From Halorubrum xinjiangense (GTDB taxonomy: Archaea; Halobacteriota; Halobacteria; Halobacteriales; Haloferacaceae), in contig NZ_FNBO01000002.1 of NCBI RefSeq assembly GCF_900102375.1, positions 62,001-126,000 of the forward strand: a DNA stretch of 64,000 nt. The letters are read 5' to 3'. Positions 33,566-61,266 of this stretch are shown here, piece after piece (the first letter of the stretch is position 1; every line of letters starts with the position of its first letter). Position numbers and translations under genes: made by a program. Under the pieces are notes generated by a model. That model ran no database searches. It worked only from the letters and a program-made list of their open reading frames with translations, and was not told the DNA's origin.

Positions 33566-34077
33566 CATTTATAAGCTCCCGATGACGCGCTATCGATCTC
33601 CGCGGTTGGCGCGTGCCGACGAGTGCCCGCAGGGCGCGAGTCGCACGCGCGAGGTCGCCGGCGCTACGCGCCGGCTGCCAGAGGGACCTTCGGTCCCTCG
33701 CTGGAGTCAGTCGCCGAAGCGAAGCGGAGGCGACTGACGAGGCTGGGGAGGTGTGAGGCTGCGGTCCCGCGAGCGACCGAAGGGAGCGAGCGGGAATACG
33801 GAAGACGCAGCGCCGAGCGAAGCGAGGCGACCGTCTTCCGGTGGTGCTGTGCGGGGCGGGAATCGAAGGGGCAGCCGCGAGGCGGGCGCAGGCGACGTAA
33901 GCACCGCAACGAGGGAGCGGAGCGACCGAGTGAGGAGCGCAACGAGCGTGCGCCCGCCTCGCGGCTGGGGCTTCGGCGGTGTTCGCCGCGGCGGCTGCGG
34001 TTTATAAGCAAGCGGCTGGGGTTTTGGGAATGTTCGCCGCCGTCCTGTTGACACCTATTTATAAGCAAGCGACCGGG
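33566..34077 (+). repeat. Dispersed structured element, copy R1 (largest; candidate noncoding RNA)
   Basis: This fills most of the 723-nt gap between cofD and icd. In order: TATA-like tttataa (33568-33574); hairpin P1 at 33609-33650; an extra hairpin gccggcgc-tac-gcgccggc (33657-33675); an extra hairpin gagggacc-ttc-ggtccctc (33681-33699); stem P2 with arms gtcagtcgcc / ggcgactgac (33706-33715 with 33729-33738); the conserved gaggctggggagg; a stem cggaagacg / cgtcttccg (33799-33840); long-range stem P3 of 19 perfect pairs (33872-33890 with 33949-33967); then a tail with TATA motifs at 34001 and 34058. Copies R2 and R3 lie at 60.87 and 45.07 kb. P1 is nearly identical in all three. No acidic protein is encoded. 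Confidence 0.7.
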
Positions 34078-34210
34078 TCGGACATGGCCGCCGCAATATT
34101 TTAAATACGAGATTCGACGGAATCCAACTGGTAGCCGACACCGAAAGAGATCGGAAAAACACCGAGATCGAACAGACAGCGATCCGCCGAGAGCCGACCG
34201 TCTGTCCGCC

Positions 34211-42881: not shown

Positions 42882-45503
<2,622 letters not shown>

Positions 45504-45521
<18 letters not shown>

Positions 45522-60788: not shown

Positions 60789-60852
60789 GCGACGAGATTT
60801 GCCGGCCCCGGATTTGAACCCTCGGCTCCGGGACGCGACCGCGCCTTCGAAC

Positions 60853-61195
60853 ACCTCACGCGATGCCGTGGCGCGTGCCGACGAGCGCCCGGAGGGCGCG
60901 AGTCGCACGCGCGAGGGAGTCGGGCGTTCCGAGGGCGACCGAAGGGAGCCCGAAGGATGCGCCCGACGAGGCTGGGGAGGCGTGAGGTGCGGTCGCTGTG
61001 CTGGGTGGGACTCAAAGGGGCAGCCGCGAGGGCGAAGCACGGCGCAGTAAGTACCGCAGCGAGGGAGCGACAGCGACCGAGCGAGGAACGCAGCAAGCCG
61101 CGCGAGCCGTCGCGGCTGGGGCTTTGGCGGTGTTCGCCGCCGCTCCGCTATCAGCCATTTATTAGCGAGCGGCTGTGGCTTCGGAGGCCTTCACC
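60853..61195 (+). repeat. Dispersed structured element, copy R2 (candidate noncoding RNA)
   Basis: It lies between the DUF5817 gene start and the inositol-phosphatase gene end. Hairpin P1 at 60871-60912: gcgcgtgc / gcacgcgc, gac / gtc, a tandem ga/ga internal loop and gcgccc-gga-gggcgc, with one bulged c. Stem P2 gtcgggcg / cgcccgac pairs 60919-60926 with 60960-60967, followed by gaggctggggagg. Then gggactcaaaggggcag and stem P3 cagccgcga / tcgcggctg (61021-61029 with 61110-61118). The tail has ggggctttggcggtgttcgcc and a TATA-like tttatta at 61158, then a second partial unit ggctgtggcttcggagg. No clear TATA box precedes P1 here. Confidence 0.7.
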
Positions 61196-61266
61196 CTTGA
61201 CCGATCGCCAGCCCCGGCTTGATTTCTACCGGCCCGAAGTCGACTCGCGACCGCCCCGAAAATCGC

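Follow-up and report, generated by a model that had tools for sequence, protein, structure and literature searches.

Since the tail of an element in the window (the whole 64,000-nt stretch of Halorubrum xinjiangense DNA analysed here) had been described in a first-pass annotation as a series of TATA-containing units with a period of 57 nt, we asked whether this spacing is real, what it is that repeats, and whether the TATA motifs may act as promoters. The element, R1, comprises a core (stems P1, P2 and P4) and a tail, occupies positions 33607 to 34090 of the plus strand and was delimited by homology to two other elements of the window, R2 and R3, and to about 155 genomic copies. A TATA-like TTTATAA (33568 to 33574) is located 39 nt upstream of the core start TGGCGCG (33607), and the 5' strand of the closing helix P5 (CGAAG, 33864 to 33868), followed by GGG and CAG, pairs with the CTTCG of the first tail box as indicated by covariation over 200+ copies. 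This first box, GGCTGGGGCTTCGG (33963 to 33976), holds the 3' strands of P4 and P5 with the GGG loop. It is followed by the TATA motif of tail unit 1 (34001 to 34007), the second box GGCTGGGGTTTTGG 51 nt past the first (34014 to 34027), the TATA motif of unit 2 57 nt past the first one (34058 to 34064) and a degenerate third box read from the sequence (GACCGGGTCGGACATGGCCG, 34071 to 34090), all on the plus strand. The TATA motif TTTATAAGCAAGCG recurs at 34001 and 34058 with the spacing of 57 nt that had been claimed, but the boxes (GGCTGGGG/TGTTCGCC), which had been assigned to the same period, are 51 nt apart, GGCTGGGG being found at 33963 and 34014 and TGTTCGCCGC at 33980 and 34031, so that the first unit of R1 is six bases short of the usual 57.

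R3 is located on the minus strand (45071 to 45466, core start TGGCGCG at 45466), is found at the same place and in the same orientation in most orthologous Halorubrum loci, and its tail points to a ferredoxin-like gene (44747-45076). Its parts, all on the minus strand, are a TATA-like motif upstream of the core (45479 to 45484), the 5' strand of P5 (CAAAG, 45328 to 45332), the first tail box TGGGGCTTTGG (45219 to 45229), the TATA motif of unit 1 (45182 to 45187), a second box TGGGGCTTTGG 57 nt from the first (45162 to 45172) and the TATA motif of unit 2 (45125 to 45130). The repetition reported for R3 was recovered, CCAAAGCCCCAG (45162 and 45219) and GGATCGG (45143 and 45200) both recurring after 57 nt, and the TATA motifs were located as TTATAA at 45071, 45125 and 45182. 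The stop codons of both flanking genes (TTA-TAA) fall within TTATAA motifs, at 45071-45076 and 45512-45517. R2 (60869 to 61215, plus strand), which the earlier annotation did not name, also carries a 57-nt repeat, with GGCTGGGG at about 61114 and GGCTGTGGCTT at 61171; it has one full and one degenerate tail unit, the core anchor GGGACTCAAAGGGGCAG (61007 to 61023, plus strand) and a tail (61114 to 61184, plus strand) made of the box GGCTGGGGCTTTGG at 61114, an imperfect TATA motif (TTTATTA) at 61158 and the degenerate box GGCTGTGGCTTCGG at 61171. Beside R2, a sequence similar to the 3' half of a tRNA (ccggccccggatttgaaccctcggctccggg, minus strand, window 60797-60840) gave no ARAGORN tRNA call and may therefore be an attachment-site remnant.

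For each of the three tails the best 46-nt self-match over shifts of 30-90 nt was compared with 300 Markov shuffles. The match of R3 was clear, 33/46 at a shift of 57 (shuffles: mean 22.0, maximum 28), while R1 reached 28/46 at a shift of 51 (shuffle maximum 27) and R2 28/46 at a shift of 57 (shuffle maximum 28); since the last two values match or barely exceed the shuffle maxima, each is borderline alone and the wider family decides.

R1, R2 and R3 are paralogues of one structured intergenic repeat. The first-pass annotation had considered the same spacing in two independent copies unlikely by chance; the spacing is real, but the independence fails because R1 and R3 are copies of one family. 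A 352-nt query of the 3.26-Mb genome returned 263 candidates and 40 scored copies, and the core anchor GGGAYTCAAAGGGGCAG occurs 155 times in this genome with at most one mismatch (the reversed control pattern, 0 times). The anchor is present in 48 of the 52 Halorubrum genomes, and a single genome may hold as many as 189 copies of the core. Gene calls made with a simple codon-usage script indicated that the copies sit between predicted genes and none inside, the gene contexts in the genome of R1-R3 being 28 (<E<), 26 (>E<, convergent), 22 (>E>) and 12 (<E>), and 12 of the last kind being the fewest. As the sequences are related, none of the counts given in this analysis represents independent events.

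The regular tail spacing was also sought in other copies and is present. Among 218 Halorubrum elements, which carry 1-5 tail units each, the box-to-box distance was 57 nt 88 times, 51 nt 10 times and 54 nt 9 times, rarer spacings being 72 nt (twice) and 53, 60 and 61 nt (once each). The last tail unit is usually degenerate. In a related genus (G113, g15) the period is 75 nt in 12 of 12 neighbouring boxes. The number of units varies between species at the same orthologous sites; at the ferredoxin site, counted with one genome per species, the element keeps its place and orientation in the majority of some 28 usable species and carries 1, 2 or 3 tail units depending on the species. Adjacent 57-nt units within an element are on average 90% identical (median 95%) and those of different elements 74%, which suggests that the arrays grow by local duplication. 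We consider it likely that the tail arose when the 3'-terminal module of a new structured repeat, MITE- or BOX-like in kind, expanded locally in tandem. Judging from the homogeneity of the units, growth would very probably occur by slippage or unequal exchange between direct repeats, which would copy the box together with the sequence between boxes; in Halorubrum the duplicated segment would usually be 57 nt with TTTATAA and sometimes 51 or 54 nt from which the motif is absent.

Nearly all periods (51, 54, 57, 72, and 75 in genus g15) are multiples of three, as would be expected if the tail encoded a repetitive peptide, and in the pneumococcus large BOX elements likewise give rise to ORFs that are expressed (PMC3049150). 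Independent classes of period are few, however, so that their divisibility by three may be fortuitous, and no frame is open across all unit types: the TATA motif gives TTA-TAA in one frame, 54-nt units contain TAG and many units contain TGA in the other frames. A coding tail was rejected on the ground that every frame is closed in some unit type, and a peptide is the least probable of the explanations considered here, to the point of being hardly credible.

Analysis of the core indicated what the repeating module is. Every tail unit repeats the strand CGGCTG-GGG-CTTTG, and the first box is the 3' strand of the closing helix of the core, pairing with CAAAG-GGG-CAGCCG and leaving a GGG/GGG internal loop between the two helices. 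P5 pairs between core and first box covary, with CAAAG/CTTTG (198-207) and CGAAG/CTTCG (8-12) in Halorubrum, GAAAG/CTTTC (about 100) in most genera and GGAAG/CTTCC (13) in others, mismatches being few, and the GGG/GGG loop is invariant. In the closing helix G.U far exceeds A.C, 45 to 7 in Halorubrum and 11 to 1 in other genera, which indicates that the strand running from core to tail folds, as RNA or as single-stranded DNA; stem P2 showed no such excess (13 versus 15). The hairpin P4 covaries strongly and is a near-terminal palindrome without a coding gene, as in PATEs. Folding prediction paired the first box with the core at 0.54-0.90 in most copies. Later boxes were rejected as substitutes for the first one in the core helix, their predicted pairing being only 0-0.11; they keep the motif though they are predicted to pair rarely with the core, so something else may conserve them. 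A hairpin inside one 57-nt unit was likewise discarded as no covarying column pair stood out. We regard as a long shot that the elements are copies of a functional nucleic acid, either RNA or single-stranded DNA, that is structured, shared across the Halobacteria and new to description, its G-tracts acting as a fold which the multimolar KCl of the cells stabilises. It is just as speculative that the invariant GGGYGGG and the GGG/GGG loop would form, for example, a quadruplex-duplex junction, and equally so that the Halorubrum tail would provide a reserve of 3' strands, a TBP-like site accompanying every one of them.

A TTTATAA-like hexamer was found in 218 of 327 units, against 0.6% expected. 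It is present in 84 of the 94 units whose next unit lies at 57 nt and in 0 of the 20 units of 51/54 nt, which are amplified in like manner; TATA is also missing from the 75-nt units of the related genus (G113). When duplicates of 75-90% identity are compared, the TATA columns differ by 8% and the spacer columns by 30%, and where the first unit has the motif the second keeps it in 53 of 64 pairs below 90% identity; such conservation in duplicates, in a GC-rich genome, indicates constraint. We infer that recognition by a protein, either TBP or a mobilising enzyme, is what preserves TTTATAA. According to the first of these possibilities each unit would be a promoter or TBP-binding site and the tail would provide several starts, or a TBP sink, for the neighbours or for the element itself. 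The retention of TTTATAA in two thirds of the units and in old duplicates agrees with this, as does a similar motif, TTATAA, which 93 of 176 copies have about 18 nt ahead of the core irrespective of how the left gene is oriented. A distal AT-rich motif at about -51 may belong to the element. Against the promoter idea, since TATA begins about 26 nt before the transcription start site (PMC8707807), transcripts from the upstream TATA would begin inside stem P1. Class I intergenic repeats of HF2, 58 bp long and containing TATA, are real promoters in Halorubrum coriense (PMC8707807) and are thus a precedent for the promoter idea; they share with the tail units the Halorubrum context and nearly the same length, but they are dispersed and have the conserved motif TCTTTAAGTC (PMC8707807) while the units of the element are in tandem, and they are not relatives.

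The first-pass annotation had proposed that the repeated TATA boxes give several promoters or TBP-binding sites; the motif is conserved between duplicated units and may thus matter, but the analysis yielded nothing positive for promoters or TBP sites, and gene distances, the form of the motif and the TATA-less units (both the 51/54-nt and the 75-nt ones) speak against them. In a haloarchaeal promoter TATA would be expected about 25-31 nt ahead of the gene start, which is mostly leaderless. Of the 33 tails that point at a gene start, a single one places its last TATA at a distance of 24-34 nt from the start codon, and the majority of tails point at gene 3' ends. At -34 to -26 of the starts predicted in these loci TTTATAA is also rare (1 of 15 TTTATA sites); gene promoters there have, near -31, either TTTATA with T or C after it or TTTAA. 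The unit TATAs were consequently rejected as promoters of neighbouring genes, as the distances do not fit. TBP binding or weak promoters at the tails are possible, but we consider it rather unlikely that the units serve as promoters or TBP sites in the sense outlined above, and the chance that TTTATAA is kept as a TBP site seems similarly low.

A covariance model built on the P4/P5 core identified relatives in 128 of 167 genomes and 21 of 28 genera of the family, and in 219 of 292 genomes and 61 of 77 sampled genera of the class Halobacteria. Reading of the sequences confirmed the order GGGYGGGACTGAAAGGGGC, hairpin, GGGGCTTTC, GAGGTGTT in many genera. Outside Halorubrum head-to-head inverted core doublets are common and have terminal inverted repeats that reach about 50 nt; doublets were noted at L281, L293, L296, L333 and L349, and paired matches in G172, G219, G255 and G324. 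Searches of Rfam 15 gave no match above the gathering score in the window, only a chance-level match at R1 (E 0.95), and a known structured RNA was therefore rejected. The core was absent from 2.9 million viral contigs and BLAST against 50,697 phage records gave no match of the element; a viral or plasmid origin was discarded since these searches were negative and only scattered matches to haloarchaeal plasmids were found. Nothing related was found in the open-licence papers searched, and an earlier description elsewhere is possible. The array is carried by a hairpin-rich, non-coding repeat interspersed between genes throughout Halorubrum, with diverged forms through most Halobacteria.

On balance the element has probably spread as a non-autonomous repeat (MITE/REP/BOX-like), a mobility suggested by its copy number and by its presence or absence at the icd site, where, with one genome counted per species, about one in three of 30 species has it and the others do not. 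Comparison of filled and empty icd sites revealed no clean empty site with a target duplication, the flanks being too diverged to define one. Retention at the ferredoxin site in most species also fits a host function. If the element is mobile, its tail units and ends could be the sites that a mobilising enzyme recognises (MITE, PATE or REP-like), a tentative proposal that we place below even chance; no more probable is the related idea that box, spacer and AT-rich motif form a terminal repeat in which TTTATAA marks the end of the element or its target. Non-Halorubrum cores are often inverted doublets with terminal inverted repeats from the box to the AT-rich motif, that of L296 being about 50 nt long and including TTTAGATAA/TTATCTAAA; in Halorubrum TTATAA flanks elements on both sides, and the near-terminal palindromes are like those of Haloquadratum PATEs (PMC3119063). 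Against such an enzyme, the icd comparison showed no target duplication, no autonomous partner was identified, and the Y1 transposase (IS200/IS605-type) does not track the element. No co-occurrence of the two was found among 51 Halorubrum genomes: G001, G019 and G029 have 85-100 copies and no Y1 match, and G026, G042 and G050 have Y1 genes and no core anchor. This lack of agreement between Y1 and the element leaves a simple IS200/IS605 origin unsupported, and mobilisation by such a system was rejected.

The non-autonomous repeat proposed here works like BOX and resembles PATEs and SMRs, a likeness that need not mean membership. BOX elements of Streptococcus pneumoniae (boxA-boxBn-boxC; PMC3049150) are also intergenic and hairpin-forming, exceed 100 copies per genome and contain one module in a variable number of tandem copies; the likeness is one of architecture, and no sequence relation is expected. 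The repeated module of the element, however, lies at the end and forms pairs with the core through its first copy, while little interaction with boxA and boxC is predicted for boxB (PMC3049150). BOX has inverted repeats and target duplications; of these, terminal inverted repeats were seen here in the doublets of other genera, and in Halorubrum no target duplication could be defined. The PATEs, MITEs and SMRs of Haloquadratum walsbyi (PMC3119063) are haloarchaeal, transposase-free and present in hundreds of copies, as is the element, which shares near-end palindromes with PATEs and, with SMRs, terminal inverted repeats and a mobiliser that is unknown (PMC3119063). PATEs are tied to IS605-type transposons (PMC3119063), while here the presence of Y1 does not follow the number of elements.

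Neither Rfam nor the literature searched appears to contain this hairpin-rich repeat, which has covarying helices and relatives in the majority of haloarchaeal genera. It would account for much intergenic sequence in Halorubrum, its variable unit number offers markers for strain typing, and it provides a clear test of whether such repeats are parasites or regulators in archaea. As for the tail, the recurring part is the box that closes the core hairpin and the lineage-specific part is the TATA motif.

Comparison of orthologues also revealed that the stem cassettes vary between them and reappear at other loci, which suggests exchange among copies. R1 carries an extra hairpin cassette (gaggtcgccggcgctacgcgccggctgccagagggaccttcggtccctcgct) between P1 and P2 (window 33650-33703), as do L024 and L148, and its presence in R1 and at other loci and in other species indicates that stems behave as exchangeable cassettes. 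In L099:4913-5040 and L124:5101-5230 the inner part of the P4 hairpin is reverse-complemented while the outer helix is normal, as if recombination between the arms had flipped it.
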